From Oscillospiraceae bacterium (GTDB lineage Bacteria; Bacillota; Clostridia; Oscillospirales; Ruminococcaceae): DNA of 64,000 nt. The stretch lies in assembly GCA_018110825.1 (NCBI GenBank), contig JAGBCL010000031.1, positions 62,001 through 126,000 on the forward strand. Direction: 5' to 3'. The notes below the pieces were generated by a model. It made no database searches. It was given only the letters and a program-made list of their open reading frames with translations, and was not told the origin of the DNA. The stretch's first letter is position 1, and each line of letters starts with the position of its first letter. The position numbers were made by a program, and so were the translations under genes. Positions 29,367 to 35,162 of the stretch are shown one piece after another.

Positions 29367-29624
29367 ATGATAAAAGGTGTAAACAGAAGAATTGTGGAAA
29401 TTACAAGCACTGAACACGAATATTTTGAAAAGGCAGTGTTATACGTGAAAACTGACAAATGCGGACTACCTATGGAAAAAATCACTGAGGAGGCAAGAGA
29501 ATATCTCGGAAGAATAGTCCCGACCAAAAACAGAGTGCAGCTTTCACTTGTGTCGAAGCTTCTCATTGCATCAGGAGGAGTGCTTCTGATTATTCTTGCG
29601 GTGTGTCTTATTATGTTGCTGTGA
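29367..29624 (+). CDS. Small membrane-anchored protein, unknown
   Basis: An 85-residue protein with a basic/acidic soluble part (MIKGVNRRIVEITSTEHEYFEKAVLYVK) and a C-terminal hydrophobic anchor (LLIASGGVLLIILAVCLIMLL), i.e. tail-anchored with the N-terminus inside. The soluble part includes GLPMEKITEEAREYLGRI. Family not recognised. It sits directly downstream of the box cluster, whose regulation it might share. The ribosome site is weak. Confidence 0.65.
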   Translation: MIKGVNRRIVEITSTEHEYFEKAVLYVKTDKCGLPMEKITEEAREYLGRIVPTKNRVQLSLVSKLLIASGGVLLIILAVCLIMLL

Positions 29625-29685: not shown

Positions 29686-29723
29686 TTAATGTGAATAATT
29701 TTGAGCATTTAACGGAGGCTGTT

Positions 29724-30593
29724 ATGGCATATTACGATAAAAGACAGCGTAAAGGTGACAGAAATGACCGACCACGCAAAGATACAAGCTACAGCAGAAA
29801 TGAAGGTTACCGCAGAAGAGAAGCTGAGCGTGCAATGCGAATTGAAGAAGATGATGAGGGCGGCACAGGTCTGATTGTGGGAAGAAATCCCGTAATTGAG
29901 GCGCTGAAAGCAGGTCGTCCTCTTAATACAATTTTTATGAATGGCGAGGGCGGAAGTCTTGGCCTTATCGCAAGAATGGCTAAGGAGCAGGGAATTGTTG
30001 TAAAACAGGTTTCCGAAACAAAGCTTTCCGATATGGCAGAGGGTGCTTCCCATCAGGGCGTAATTGCAAGCGGTGCTTGTGCAGAATATGTTACGGTTGA
30101 GGACATTCTCGAGGTTTCAAAGAAAAAAGGCACAAAGCCATTTATTATTATCTGTGATGAAATCGAAGATCCTCACAATCTGGGTGCAATAATCCGTACG
30201 GCTGAGTCAGCAGGTGCTGACGGAATTATTATTCCGAAAAGAAGAAGTGCAGCACTGAACAGCACGGTGTATAAAACTTCTGCAGGTGCGGCAAGCTGGC
30301 TTCCTGTGGCAAGAGTTGCAAATATTCCTGCGGCACTTGACCAGCTTAAAGAAAACGGTGTGTGGATTTACGGTACGGACGCAAGCGGTGAGGATTACAC
30401 CAATTCTGATATGACAGGAAGTGTAGGATTGGTAATCGGCTCAGAAGGCTTCGGAATGGGCAGACTTGTCCGTGAGAAGTGTGACTTCCTGCTGAAATTA
30501 CCTATGTACGGCAAAATTACTTCCCTTAACGCATCCGTTGCGGCGGGAATTTTTATGTACGAAACTGTAAGACAGCGCAAGGCTGTAAAATAA
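29724..30593 (+). CDS. rlmB: 23S rRNA (guanosine-2'-O)-methyltransferase RlmB type
   Basis: SPOUT-class (TrmH family) methyltransferase that 2'-O-methylates a guanosine in the 23S peptidyl-transferase region. The 289 residues have a basic N-terminal extension (about 45 residues rich in R, K and D), a substrate-binding domain (LIVGRNPVIEALKAGRPL), then the trefoil-knot SAM domain with EDPHNLGAIIRTAESAGADG, VIGSEGFGM and LPMYGKITSLNASVAAGI. Start placed at the ATG six bases after CGGAGG; a GTG at 29691 lacks a site. RlmB versus TrmH relatives cannot be fully separated by eye. Confidence 0.88.
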   Translation: MAYYDKRQRKGDRNDRPRKDTSYSRNEGYRRREAERAMRIEEDDEGGTGLIVGRNPVIEALKAGRPLNTIFMNGEGGSLGLIARMAKEQGIVVKQVSETKLSDMAEGASHQGVIASGACAEYVTVEDILEVSKKKGTKPFIIICDEIEDPHNLGAIIRTAESAGADGIIIPKRRSAALNSTVYKTSAGAASWLPVARVANIPAALDQLKENGVWIYGTDASGEDYTNSDMTGSVGLVIGSEGFGMGRLVREKCDFLLKLPMYGKITSLNASVAAGIFMYETVRQRKAVK

Positions 30594-30694: not shown

Positions 30695-33490
30695 TTGGCT
30701 GATGGAAAATACTCGGTAGACGATATTCTCAGCGAATATTCCGGAACAAAAACCGACGGAAGCTTTGACCTGGATATTGATGCTTTAATCAACGGATTCG
30801 ATTCAAAGGTTCAGCCTGTTGAATCAAACGAAGAACCTGTTGCTGAAACTGTGCAGAAGCCTGTTGAAACTAAATCAGAGCCTGTTGAAACAGCGGTGGA
30901 TTCTGTTGATACCAATGATATACATACAAAAACTGATACAGCACGGAATAAAACAGACAGCTTTGAGGAAAAGTATGCAAAGTTTACTTCTGCTGTAACG
31001 GCAGTTAAAGAACGCGAAATTCCTGTCTCACCTGTTCCTGCAACACAGAAGCCTGCCCGTTCTTTTTCAGAGAAAATGGAGCAGGGTGTAAAGGATGATG
31101 TTGTTCGTCAGAATGAGCAGCCTGAAGAAAGAAAACCTGCAGTTGCTTCTGTTTTCGGAAGAAAGAATAATGATGAGGTTGTTCATGCGGAAAAGCTTGA
31201 TGAACCGCCTATTCAGAGTATTTCTGCTGAAAGAAGAGTTCAGGATAATCCGTTTGAAAAATATTCGTCAATTGAGGAAGCTGAGGTTCAGCGTGAGAAG
31301 CATGACCTTGACGAAATCTTAAATGAGTATGCGGCTGAAAAGAAGAGACCTGCAAAAACTGAAAATACTCAGCATAAGAGTATAACAGAATTTTTTACAA
31401 AGCTTATTCCTAAGGCTGATGATGACGACGAACAAGGAATTTCAGGCAATACCGAATTGCTGGATGGCATGCTGAAAGCAAAAAGAGAGCGTGTTTCCCG
31501 TACACAGCATGTTGCTCCGATTGAAAGAAAATCCATTTCGGATATTGACCTTAATCTTGATGACAAAATTATTCAGGATACAGCTCAGCTGCCGGTTGAC
31601 AACGAAAACAGCGAGCAGGCAAAGATTGATGCACTTAAAGAACGCAGAAGCAAGAAAATCAAGGACTTTGTGCTTGTGGGAGATGAAGAGGACATCGCTG
31701 ATGACGATGCTGATAATGAAGGTCAGGATGTTGTTATTGACGATTTCGAAAACTTCAACGATGCTCCGTCAATTGCACACGATATCGCACAGCTTAAGGG
31801 AAGTCTTATGCTCAGACTTTTTGTGCTTATGATTTGTTTTGCGGCAAGCTTCTATATCGCAATTGCTAACGACACACAGGCAATGCCGATTATGGAGCTG
31901 TTAAACAAGCGTTCTCAGACAAATACATTCCTTTTTGTAAATGCAATTCTCGGTTTGCTGGCCGCTTTTTCAAGCTATACGGTTATTTCCTGCGGGTTGT
32001 CAAAACTGCTTTCATTCAAGGCGGATTGTGACAGCTTGTGTGCAGTTTCAATTGTTGCATCAATAACTTCAACAATGATTATGTTTGCCAACGGAAACCT
32101 TATCAAGGGAAGTTTTGTGCACGTATATATTCCGGTTGCTATTGCATCATTGCTGTTCAATACAATCGGTAAGCTTTGTATCGTAAGGCGAACTCAGCGC
32201 AGCTTCAAATTCATTTCGGGAAGTTCGGACAAATATGCTGTTTTCCATGTGGAAGATGAGGAAACCGCACAGAATTTCACAAGGGGGGCCCTCAATGACT
32301 TCCCTAATCTTGCTTCAATGAGAAAAACAGAGTTTGTTTCAGAGTTCCTTAAAACTTCATATGCAAGCGACAGTACCGACCGTTTCTGCCGTATGTTTAC
32401 TCCTGCCGTTCTCGCAGCAGCTGCTGTGATAGGCATTATTGCAGGTATTCTTGGTAATACAGACCATGGTTCTTCTTCGGTTTATGTGGGAATTTCCGTG
32501 TTTGTGGGAGTTGTTGCAATATGTACAGGTTTTTCCATGATGCTTATTGTAAATCTGCCGATGCTCCGTGCTTCGAAAAAAAATGCGGAAGTACAGGGCG
32601 TTGTGCTTGGATATGAAAGCATCGATGAATTTGCTGAAACAAACAGTATTCTTGTGGATGCAAGTAAGCTTTTCCCTCAGGGAAGCGTAAAGCTGGCGGC
32701 AATCAAGGTATTTTCAGATACACGAATTGACGAGGCTATTGTTGAAGCGGCAAGCCTTGCAAGTCAGGCAGGAAGTATTCTTCAGAATATGTTTTATGAC
32801 ATTATTGCAGGTAAAACAGAACTGCTAAATCCTGTTGAAAGCTATATTTATGAGGATTCAATGGGACTCTGCGGCTGGATAAACAATAAGCGCGTGCTTT
32901 TGGGTAATCGTGAGCTGATGGTAAATCACAGTATTGAGGGTATGCCTCCGCTCAGTAAGGAAAAAGAATATACCGAAAATGGCAGATGTGCAGTGTATCT
33001 TTCTATTTCAGGTGAACTTTCGGCAATGTTCCTGGTGGAAATAAACCCTACCATGGAAGTGCGTCAATCTCTCCATGAGCTTCAGAGAAATGGTATTTAC
33101 CTGATGATACGTTCTGTGGATTCGCTGGTTACAATAAACAGGCTTTCGGAATTGTTTGAAATATCTCCTGAATATCTGAAGCTGATACCATTCCGTGTTC
33201 ACGAGCAGTTTGCAGAGACTACTGCTTATCAGATGAAGCAGAAAGCAACGCTTGCATGCTCGGGACGTTTTGCGGCGCTTTCATCATTGATTCTCAGCTG
33301 CAAATATATGAAAACAACTATCGGTGTAGGTATTGCACTGCAGGCAGTTTCAATGCTGCTGGGTGTACTTATCTCACTGGTAATGGTTGTTACGGGCAGT
33401 GTACAGGAACTTTCTGTATCAATGCTTATGATGTATAATTTCATTTTCACAGCAGTTCTGATGGTGTTTCAGCTTATCAGGAAAAATTAA
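30695..33490 (+). CDS. P-type ATPase-like pseudoenzyme with long acidic N-terminus
   Basis: A 931-residue membrane protein. Residues 1-360 are polar, acidic and probably disordered, with two copies of a D-x-I-L-x-E-Y motif (residues 8-15 VDDILSEY and 205-212 LDEILNEY). Residues 370-630 carry paired membrane spans; 630-870 follow a heavy-metal P-type ATPase order, but every catalytic motif is changed: the phosphorylation site DKTGT reads DASKL (655-659), TGD reads RSVD near 806-809, and GDGxND reads CSGR (855-858). LLGNRELM (735-742) still matches the nucleotide domain. Two C-terminal spans follow. No pump activity is expected. Start follows GGGAG at normal spacing. Confidence 0.75.
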   Translation: MADGKYSVDDILSEYSGTKTDGSFDLDIDALINGFDSKVQPVESNEEPVAETVQKPVETKSEPVETAVDSVDTNDIHTKTDTARNKTDSFEEKYAKFTSAVTAVKEREIPVSPVPATQKPARSFSEKMEQGVKDDVVRQNEQPEERKPAVASVFGRKNNDEVVHAEKLDEPPIQSISAERRVQDNPFEKYSSIEEAEVQREKHDLDEILNEYAAEKKRPAKTENTQHKSITEFFTKLIPKADDDDEQGISGNTELLDGMLKAKRERVSRTQHVAPIERKSISDIDLNLDDKIIQDTAQLPVDNENSEQAKIDALKERRSKKIKDFVLVGDEEDIADDDADNEGQDVVIDDFENFNDAPSIAHDIAQLKGSLMLRLFVLMICFAASFYIAIANDTQAMPIMELLNKRSQTNTFLFVNAILGLLAAFSSYTVISCGLSKLLSFKADCDSLCAVSIVASITSTMIMFANGNLIKGSFVHVYIPVAIASLLFNTIGKLCIVRRTQRSFKFISGSSDKYAVFHVEDEETAQNFTRGALNDFPNLASMRKTEFVSEFLKTSYASDSTDRFCRMFTPAVLAAAAVIGIIAGILGNTDHGSSSVYVGISVFVGVVAICTGFSMMLIVNLPMLRASKKNAEVQGVVLGYESIDEFAETNSILVDASKLFPQGSVKLAAIKVFSDTRIDEAIVEAASLASQAGSILQNMFYDIIAGKTELLNPVESYIYEDSMGLCGWINNKRVLLGNRELMVNHSIEGMPPLSKEKEYTENGRCAVYLSISGELSAMFLVEINPTMEVRQSLHELQRNGIYLMIRSVDSLVTINRLSELFEISPEYLKLIPFRVHEQFAETTAYQMKQKATLACSGRFAALSSLILSCKYMKTTIGVGIALQAVSMLLGVLISLVMVVTGSVQELSVSMLMMYNFIFTAVLMVFQLIRKN

Positions 33491-33495
33491 AAGTA

Positions 33496-33540
33496 ACATG
33501 TCCGAAAACTAAGTAACGCTTGTTTTCGGACATGTTTTTA
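33496..33540 (+). terminator. Terminator of the 931-residue protein gene
   Basis: ACATGTCCGAAAAC (33496-33509) pairs with GTTTTCGGACATGT (33522-33535), then TTTTT. Confidence 0.92.
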
Positions 33541-33631: not shown

Positions 33632-34588
33632 TCATACTATTATCGAAACTTTCTGTTCAGGCTGGGTAGGCATGGTTTCCTTTGGTTCAGTGTTTTCAGG
33701 TACTGTTGTAACCTCAGGCTCTTCCTTTTCTTCAGGTTCCTCCCATGGACCAAGCATTTCCGTAGCCTTTCCGTTTGCATCAAGCCAGCCCTGCTCCTCG
33801 TAGTACTCCTCAAGGCAAAGCCCACTCTGCTTGATTTCGTTTGCATAATAAAGTCCTACAAAACGGTAGTGCCACGGCTCATAGATAATGCCTGTAATCT
33901 CCTGCTTGCCTTTAGGATAACGAAGAATGAAACCGTATTCATGAGCGTGTGCATCAAGCCATTTGAATGCTTCGGTGTTTTCAAAACCGTCATCGTCCAT
34001 GCTGGTGTATTCCTCAGACATAATATCAAGCGCAAGACCTGCATTGTGCTCACTTTCACCTGGGAGTGCAACCTCCGCAAGGGTATCAGCGTAAGCCTCG
34101 TCATAGGTCATGCCGCGGTTGTCAATTCTGTCCTGCACACTGTTGTCGAAATTCTGCTGCTGATACTCAATTGTACGGTAAGCAGAAACTACAAGCAGGT
34201 CAATGCCGTCTTTCTTTGCAGCGTTAAGCATATCCTCGAAGTAAGGTGCTGCACGTGAGTCAATAAAATATTCTCTCCAGCTTTCAAAAACCATCTTTGT
34301 TTCAATTCTGCTGTCGTAGTCCATCGGCAGAGGATTGCTCTTATTAACAAGGAACATCGCCCATTTGTTGTCGATATTCTCGTCCTCCTTTTCTTCTTCG
34401 GATTCATCAAGAACGATGATTTCGGTTGTATTTTCGGTAACAGCTTCCTCCTTGTTGTCTCCCTTGAACACGAAGGTTGTAAGCACGAATGCAAGGGCAA
34501 GAAGCAAAGCTGATATAATCAATAGATATTTTATTCCACGCAAAATTATTACTCTCCTTTGGTTTTTGTATCTTTTTATTTTACGCAT
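33632..34588 (-). CDS. VanY-type D-alanyl-D-alanine carboxypeptidase, membrane-anchored
   Basis: Peptidase family M15B, trims the terminal D-Ala from peptidoglycan stem peptides. 318 residues: a basic N-terminus and a single span (residues about 18-40), an acidic linker, then the catalytic domain with VVSAYRTIEYQQ, the zinc motif SEHNAGLALDI and EPWHYRFVG. An additional C-terminal tail (about 50 residues, rich in E, P and T) ends in EQKVSIIV. GGGAG lies seven bases before ATG. A second VanY-type protein (62462-63478) is a lipoprotein. Confidence 0.92.
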   Translation of the reverse strand: MRKIKRYKNQRRVIILRGIKYLLIISALLLALAFVLTTFVFKGDNKEEAVTENTTEIIVLDESEEEKEDENIDNKWAMFLVNKSNPLPMDYDSRIETKMVFESWREYFIDSRAAPYFEDMLNAAKKDGIDLLVVSAYRTIEYQQQNFDNSVQDRIDNRGMTYDEAYADTLAEVALPGESEHNAGLALDIMSEEYTSMDDDGFENTEAFKWLDAHAHEYGFILRYPKGKQEITGIIYEPWHYRFVGLYYANEIKQSGLCLEEYYEEQGWLDANGKATEMLGPWEEPEEKEEPEVTTVPENTEPKETMPTQPEQKVSIIV

Positions 34589-34715: not shown

Positions 34716-35162
34716 ATGCGCTGTCCGTTTTGCAATTTTGAAGATACCAAAGTCGTGGACTCCCGTTCCATTGACGGAAAAAAGCGCCGCAGACGTGAAT
34801 GTACAAACTGCGGAAAAAGATTTACTACATACGAAGCGGTTGAAATGCCGGTGCTTCTTGTTGTAAAGCGTGACAACTCTGTTGAGCTTTTTGACAGGAA
34901 CAAGCTTATCAAAGGTCTGTCCTCCGCTGTAAAGAAGCGTCCTGTTTCAATTGAGGACGTGAACAGGATTGTTGACTCTGTTGAAAGCTGTTACGCAAAC
35001 AATATGCAGAACCAGATTACCTCGGCGGAAATCGGCGATATCGTGCTGAAAAGTCTGAAGGAAATGGACCAGGTTGCATATGTGCGTTTTGCATCGGTTT
35101 ATAAGGATTTCAGCGACGTGGAAAGCTTTATAAATATCATCTCTGAGCTTAAAGGGGAATAA
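34716..35162 (+). CDS. nrdR: Transcriptional repressor NrdR
   Basis: Zinc-ribbon/ATP-cone repressor of ribonucleotide reductase genes. 148 residues: zinc ribbon with CPFC and CTNC (residues 3-34, MRCPFCNFEDTKVVDSR...RRRECTNCGKRF), then the ATP cone (VVKRDNSVELFDRNKLIKGLSSAVKKR) that senses ATP/dATP. Standard length. AAAGGGAAATTTCA precedes ATG. No nrd gene is in the window, so its targets are elsewhere. Confidence 0.97.
   Translation: MRCPFCNFEDTKVVDSRSIDGKKRRRRECTNCGKRFTTYEAVEMPVLLVVKRDNSVELFDRNKLIKGLSSAVKKRPVSIEDVNRIVDSVESCYANNMQNQITSAEIGDIVLKSLKEMDQVAYVRFASVYKDFSDVESFINIISELKGE

Follow-up and report, generated by a model that had tools for sequence, protein, structure and literature searches.

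By the window we mean the whole stretch of DNA that was analysed, 64,000 nucleotides from an Oscillospiraceae bacterium. It contains, behind the methyltransferase gene rlmB and on the same strand, a gene for a membrane protein that has the layout of a heavy-metal (P1B-type) P-type ATPase and has lost the catalytic signatures of such pumps. The features of the locus are listed below (window positions; aa, residues of the window protein).

29691..30593, + strand: rlmB, 23S rRNA Gm2251 methyltransferase (TIGR00186, E 3.1e-72), 101 bases before the next gene
30695..33490, + strand: pseudo-P1B-ATPase gene, 931 aa, TTG start, single copy
30695..31801, + strand: acidic N-terminal tail, ~370 aa, no known domain
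30716..30739, + strand: N-terminal docking-type motif VDDILSEY, aa 8-15
31307..31330, + strand: another copy of the motif, LDEILNEY, aa 205-212, present in members of the genus
31808..32185, + strand: helices matching MA, MB, M1 and M2, aa 372-497 (hydropathy and profile alignment)
32186..32395, + strand: what remains of the actuator (A) domain, aa 498-567, without TGE
32396..32569, + strand: helices M3 and M4, TGF (aa 611-613) replacing CPC (hydropathy, alignments)
32657..32677, + strand: former phosphorylation site, DASKLFP for DKTGTLT, aa 655-661
32849..32920, + strand: core of the nucleotide domain, aa 719-742, the block of highest conservation (G724 and G737 invariant)
33119..33121, + strand: D809, equivalent to the Asp of TGD and retained in 75/76 members
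33332..33478, + strand: helices M5 and M6, aa 880-928 (hydropathy; M5 also by profile alignment)
33495-33536, + strand: terminator-like hairpin 3' of the gene, -23.9 kcal/mol, z -8.1

The open reading frame at 30695-33490, which a first-pass annotation of the sequence had described as a P-type ATPase of heavy-metal layout, is real, and P1B profiles match it. For the terminator claimed for it there is a hairpin like an intrinsic terminator at 33495-33536; a simple terminator scan did not list this hairpin, probably because of a bulge in its stem. Beyond it a VanY-type D-Ala-D-Ala carboxypeptidase gene (33632-34588, minus strand) adjoins NrdR (34716-35162, plus strand).

Pfam gave no match for the 931-residue window protein. 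Searched as a single sequence against NCBIfam, it gave partial matches, far below the cut-offs, to TIGR01525 (E 5.8e-12) and to the model for CopA (1.4e-13), and by sequence the best solved structure was LpCopA (PDB 3rfu; E 6.8e-16 with the single sequence and 1.4e-34 with a profile), so that the homology to P1B ATPases is significant from the single sequence alone. We then have the comparison of two profiles: A1, made of 37 rows drawn from the first 54 family members, and A3, made of 10 of 18 canonical proteins. These align over 543 columns with a probability of 100% and an E-value of 2.3e-40, from before the first helix through M5, stopping at aa 909, just short of the last helix; the alignment is interrupted by large gaps where the A domain and GDGxND lie. 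The fold, checked by profile-profile comparison only, thus groups with the P1B pumps. Hydropathy gives eight membrane segments (from nine passing windows, of which two overlap on a single helix), four ahead of the A-domain remnant, two ahead of the head and two behind it; M6 is placed by hydropathy alone, because the profile alignment ends at aa 909. The A domain is cut down to a stretch of ~70 residues. Homology to P1B-type ATPases was found in overall sequence and in topology, by the profile-profile comparison, the 3rfu match and hydropathy, and on this sequence evidence we regard it as certain that the window protein is a remote homologue of the P1B (copper-type) ATPases. The same genome also encodes a separate P1B protein with DKTGT, GDGIND, TGE and CPC, and it therefore has a normal pump too.

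The fate of the catalytic residues was followed in an alignment of 76 family members from 21 families and 18 canonical P-type proteins, 16 of them from outside the order of the window's genome and two from inside it, which were selected for DKTGT (the motif is present in all 16 loci fetched from outside the order). The first alignment, of 54 members, excludes the canonical loci L002 = L066 (the same gene) and L064, a fragment (L025), two members that are split (L038, L055) and L032-L037, whose genomes were already represented; no DKTGT was found among the family pieces left out. The addition of 22 further members brought the total to 76. All scored catalytic and metal residues are present in 18/18 canonical proteins. 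In the family, the whole DKTGT motif was found in none of the 76 members, and the same holds for its Lys and its Gly, while its Asp is kept in 43. The window protein reads DASKL at residues 655-659, with D655 as this Asp, just as the first-pass annotation had it. With no orthologue among the 76 carrying an intact DKTGT, the window gene is no single defective allele. A new family motif, [LI]FP, stands at the old phosphorylation site (Phe in 69/76, then Pro in 68/76).

The other signatures have fared similarly. The G and E of the TGE motif of the A domain fall in a gap in 76/76 members and are present in 18/18 canonical proteins. GDGxND, reported as replaced by CSGR in the window protein, is indeed missing throughout: its columns are a gap in 76/76 members and the string occurs in 0/76, and because of this gap it looks deleted and not replaced by CSGR. 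TGD had been described as lost; its Gly is gone in all 76 members and a Thr or Ser remains in 68, but the Asp is kept in 75, as D809 in the window protein. The P-domain Lys that follows TGD is retained in 1/76 and lost in 75/76. In the N domain, the His of HP (SEHPL) occurs in 0/76 members, the first Gly of GxG in 26 and the second in all 76. Of the CPC metal site in M4, the first Cys is found in 2/76, the Pro in 40/76 and the second Cys in 0/76. The helix-4 proline region had been described as retained; in the window protein Gly612 sits at the CPC proline position, though the 40 members just mentioned have the proline. With the genus down-weighted, the most conserved positions of the family are G737, G724 and D809. 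One further member, inspected later and not among the 76 (locus L239 of genome G051), likewise lacks DKTGT and GDGxND. In a tree of the 76 members and 18 canonical proteins of the class, which has several long branches and leaves the family unplaced among the P1B subtypes, the family forms one clade against the canonical proteins with a support of 100/100. Catalytic residues are thus lost clade-wide in the 76 members aligned, as in a pseudoenzyme.

We determined how widely the family occurs with searches at increasing distance. A single-protein search matched 57 of 61 near genomes, the own genome counted; of the four that did not match, three are 55% complete and the fourth (G051) was found with a profile. 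Within the window's order, which we take to be Oscillospirales in the GTDB scheme, profile A1 matched 192/197 genomes at E 1e-45 or better and at one place each, the weakest of these matches having an E-value of 1.1e-56 (G485). The other five order genomes (G348, G373, G393, G404, G427) gave matches in the range of pumps only, and the loci fetched from them encode proteins with DKTGT. In a class sample of 292 genomes, nearly the whole model is matched in the 14 that belong to the order, with scores of 333-750 bits; the family was not found in the 278 genomes outside the order, whose best score was 137 bits over model positions 216-501. Nor was it found in 247/249 genomes of a phylum sample, which overlaps the class sample by at least six non-matching genomes, and the two matches there, at 1e-42, are both of the order. 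On the genomes sampled, the family is therefore order-wide and order-restricted.

The wide conservation is accompanied by purifying selection, also as in a pseudoenzyme that selection maintains. The core has a dN/dS of 0.03-0.06 (NG86) in the 6 of 8 comparisons with usable dS, estimates that are rough because dS is high in most of them (>1.3 in 4/6). In three genome pairs dN/dS was 0.019-0.061 for rlmB (computed without its first 60 codons), 0.043-0.063 for the core and 0.127-0.201 for the tail. Judged from these substitution rates, the gene is under strong constraint, and the tail evolves faster than the core and is still constrained. The view that this is not a decayed gene, put forward from reading-frame length and codon use, agrees with the core value of ~0.05. 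Two members, those of G058 (L083) and G383 (C4), have one in-frame TGA each in frames that are otherwise open; the cause may be sequencing error, decay or recoding. At locus L070 (G024; 4882 and 7593) the full gene is preceded by a second copy of its start, whose frame contains a stretch of unknown residues; this copy is possibly an assembly artefact.

The genomic neighbourhood is conserved on the upstream side. Among 79 loci, 10 end too early to tell, and in 67 of the 69 informative ones, from 22 families, a gene of rlmB type, recognised by its match to the window's RlmB, lies upstream on the same strand; it is lacking in the remaining two (G021, G037). Measured to the open frame and not to the start codon, the distance is at most 140 bases in 66/67 loci and 1094 in G058, where the frame is split by the TGA. 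The genes downstream mostly vary. An EF-G-like gene was found downstream in 7 loci of five families (L068:15496-17568 and six others), no more than two genes away in 6 and at a distance of five genes in the seventh, and one member of this cluster was identified as EF-G by Pfam. Ahead of rlmB the window also encodes an 85-aa orphan protein (29367-29624, plus strand; MIKGVN...EAREYLG...) with one C-terminal hydrophobic stretch and no Pfam or NCBIfam match. Look-alikes occur near rlmB in 14 clustered loci, 13 of them on the same strand; the window's own copy is outside this cluster, the gene caller having chosen an overlapping frame.

The part of the protein ahead of the membrane helices is probably disordered. 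It is acidic, as had been noted, with 81 D+E against 49 K+R in residues 1-345; the acidic tail is thus present, but what was presented as a fused domain is better called an N-terminal extension. Two D-x-I-L-x-E-Y motifs had been pointed out in it, and both are found where they were placed (window 30719-30739 and 31310-31330). The motif peptide of the pseudo-ATPase is KYSVDDILSEYSG. Ahead of the membrane part, 45/76 tails contain a strict form of the motif, D[DE]I[LI].E[YFIVL], against 0.045 expected from shuffled tails, that is in 19/20 rows of the genus and in 26/56 others, some of which are cut by locus ends. The strict form was not found in 31 of 76 tails, some of them likewise cut. A few members have a very short tail; in two of them the core is preceded by 5 and 89 residues.

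We also counted the motif across genomes at the DNA level. The EY-form pattern gave 63 matches in 20 genomes of the genus, where the same pattern reversed gave 2; of the 60 inspected, 38 lie in the pseudo-ATPase gene, 13 in a sortase gene and 9 elsewhere. A related pattern, run on 34 other genomes, matched 36 times, against 9 for a backward control; of the 32 inspected, 12 are in the pseudo-ATPase gene (one a partial copy) and the rest in internal or unrelated places. Among the matches of two patterns run on the own genome, those in the pseudo-ATPase and in the sortase are at the N-terminus; there are also two lookalikes, a looser one near the start of a frame (L091, MRLDELIEEV) and another within a short frame (L105). 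The sortase in question (L089, G000:C22:8235 onward) bears the motif at its N-terminus, in the peptide KKYTLDDILKEYDD, and a long acidic region lies ahead of its first helix; the sortases adjoining it have no such tail. Among 19 tailed sortases of the genus, 13 have the strict motif and 6 have variants that range from close (YTVENILEEY) to weak (KNLADLLEEY); the genome G012 gave no match at 1e-30. A sister genus (G022) has a long-form sortase with FTVDDIIAEF. In 15 other genomes of the family, where 30 of 38 sortase loci were inspected, the motif is absent outside the sister genus, bar one loose and chance-like match (L298). From these counts, the motif belongs to much of the pseudo-ATPase family and its sharing with the sortase looks recent. 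The resemblance to docking peptides remarked on in the first-pass annotation gains support, at the level of sequence, from conservation in the family and from recurrence at the N-terminus of the tailed sortase.

The reading that we favour, and consider fairly probable, is that this order-wide core pseudo-ATPase is a non-catalytic membrane scaffold whose tail recruits a cytosolic partner. Since the catalytic parts are lost and yet nearly every sampled genome of the order keeps the protein, usually beside rlmB, its present use is probably that of a non-pumping membrane platform. The starting point would have been a P1B metal pump in an ancestor of the order; the residues that serve ATP binding, autophosphorylation and dephosphorylation, and those of the metal path, would then have been lost, and the membrane body and the fold of the nucleotide domain kept. 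The present protein, presumably devoid of ATPase activity, would act without catalysis. By analogy with P1B pumps, whose tail lies in the cytosol, the tail is predicted to be on the cytosolic side, where the motif, [FY]-[ST]-[VLI]-D-D-I-L-x-E-[YFIV], would bind the partner and keep it there at the membrane. The same partner is probably bound, in the window's genus, by the sortase that carries the motif. Several observations count against this reading: the 31 tails in which the strict motif was not found, the very short tail of a few members, the occurrence of the motif-bearing sortase in this genus and one sister genus only, and the related-pattern matches in 34 other genomes. Further, conservation peaks in the nucleotide-domain core and not in the tail, which makes a separate binding role of the core probable; the high conservation of this core, of D809 and of [LI]FP suggests that the head binds something too. 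The first-pass annotation is supported in substance; the role that it proposed, a membrane scaffold or sensor, is an inference. A bolder extension, which we regard as possible and on the whole doubtful, is that DDILxEY is a docking code by which the near-universal dead-pump hub and the tailed sortase bind one cytosolic organiser, linking in surface-protein anchoring. If true, this would tie the anchoring of surface proteins to a site or machine set up by a dead pump.

The main rival to this scaffold is a ligand-sensing variant of it, in which the degenerate P/N head would bind a nucleotide or small ligand without hydrolysis and signal to the partner through the helices or the tail. The location of the most conserved block, with the invariant G724 and G737, in the nucleotide-domain core is consistent with such a sensor, and so are D809 and [LI]FP at the old active site and the precedent of TMEM94, a degenerate P-type fold for which AMPPCP binding at micromolar affinity, and no detected ATPase activity, have been reported (PMC12134183). 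We nevertheless think it unlikely: the His of HP is lost in 76/76 members, the first Gly of GxG in 50/76 and the P-domain Lys in 75/76, and these losses make ATP binding of the usual type unlikely. The synteny raises another thought, that the protein is a partner of translation or ribosome maturation at the membrane and stays with rlmB because it works with the ribosome, for example by tethering the ribosome or a maturation factor. This we judge improbable. The upstream rlmB-type gene in 67/69 informative loci of 22 families and the EF-G-like gene downstream in 7 loci fit it, but co-transcription alone can preserve synteny, the downstream neighbours are mostly variable, and the window protein has no Pfam domain.

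Continued work as a transporter or flippase, powered by another source than an ATP cycle of its own, is very improbable for this protein. The protein has retained the helices, and 40/76 members keep the metal-site proline of M4, but the CPC cysteines are gone (the first in 74/76, the second in 76/76), TGE is missing and Pfam reveals no replacement energy domain in the window protein. Decay of the gene, or a defect of one allele, would account for missing catalytic signatures as they are seen in one sequence, and the in-frame TGA of the two members elsewhere (G058, G383) would be in keeping with it. Against this stand the core dN/dS of ~0.05, the order-wide conservation and the 0/76 count for DKTGT, and its probability is negligible: a decayed gene is ruled out by dN/dS and a single defective allele by the orthologues. 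An unrelated family is ruled out as well, by the profile-profile match to P1B. The non-catalytic scaffold is our best guess for the role of the protein.

P-type ATPases are among the best-studied membrane enzymes, and degenerate versions have been reported from eukaryotes (PMC6592433, PMC12134183). In one open-access library we found nothing on this bacterial pseudo-P-type ATPase family, on its rlmB context or on its essentiality, nor is a bacterial pseudo-pump named in the passages on point of a 2023 review of P-type ATPases (PMC10654040). As a core gene in 192/197 genomes whose copy in the window has no Pfam match and falls far below the NCBIfam cut-offs, the order-wide bacterial pseudo-P1B-ATPase family would offer a clean model for the reuse of a pump fold. 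In one cryo-EM report, human TMEM94/ERMA has P-type-like domains without TGES, and ATPase activity was not detected; it is unlike the bacterial family in being eukaryotic, with ten helices, and closest to the SPCA calcium pump (PMC12134183). Its status is disputed, another paper presenting it as an ER Mg2+ ATPase (PMC13322241). Plasmodium GC-beta carries a degenerated P4-ATPase domain, and differs in class (P4), in its junction to a guanylate cyclase and in its eukaryotic origin (PMC6592433); unlike GC-beta, the bacterial window protein has no enzyme domain by Pfam.

Compared with the CopA/ZntA P1B ATPases (TIGR01525), the family shares the helix layout, the head between M4 and M5, the second Gly of GxG and the Asp of TGD. 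It differs from them in lacking DKTGT, TGE, HP, GDGxND and CPC, in the loss of the P-domain Lys in 75/76 members and in an A domain and a P-domain end that are much shortened; the window protein differs further in its acidic tail and in having no metal-binding domain by Pfam. We know of no docking motif that DDILxEY matches. Because the motif is common to the pseudo-ATPase and the sortase, the partner should be directly findable. Short linear docking motifs occur on the tails of bacterial membrane proteins, and the motif described here is like them in being a short conserved peptide that opens a probably disordered tail and is common to unrelated membrane proteins.
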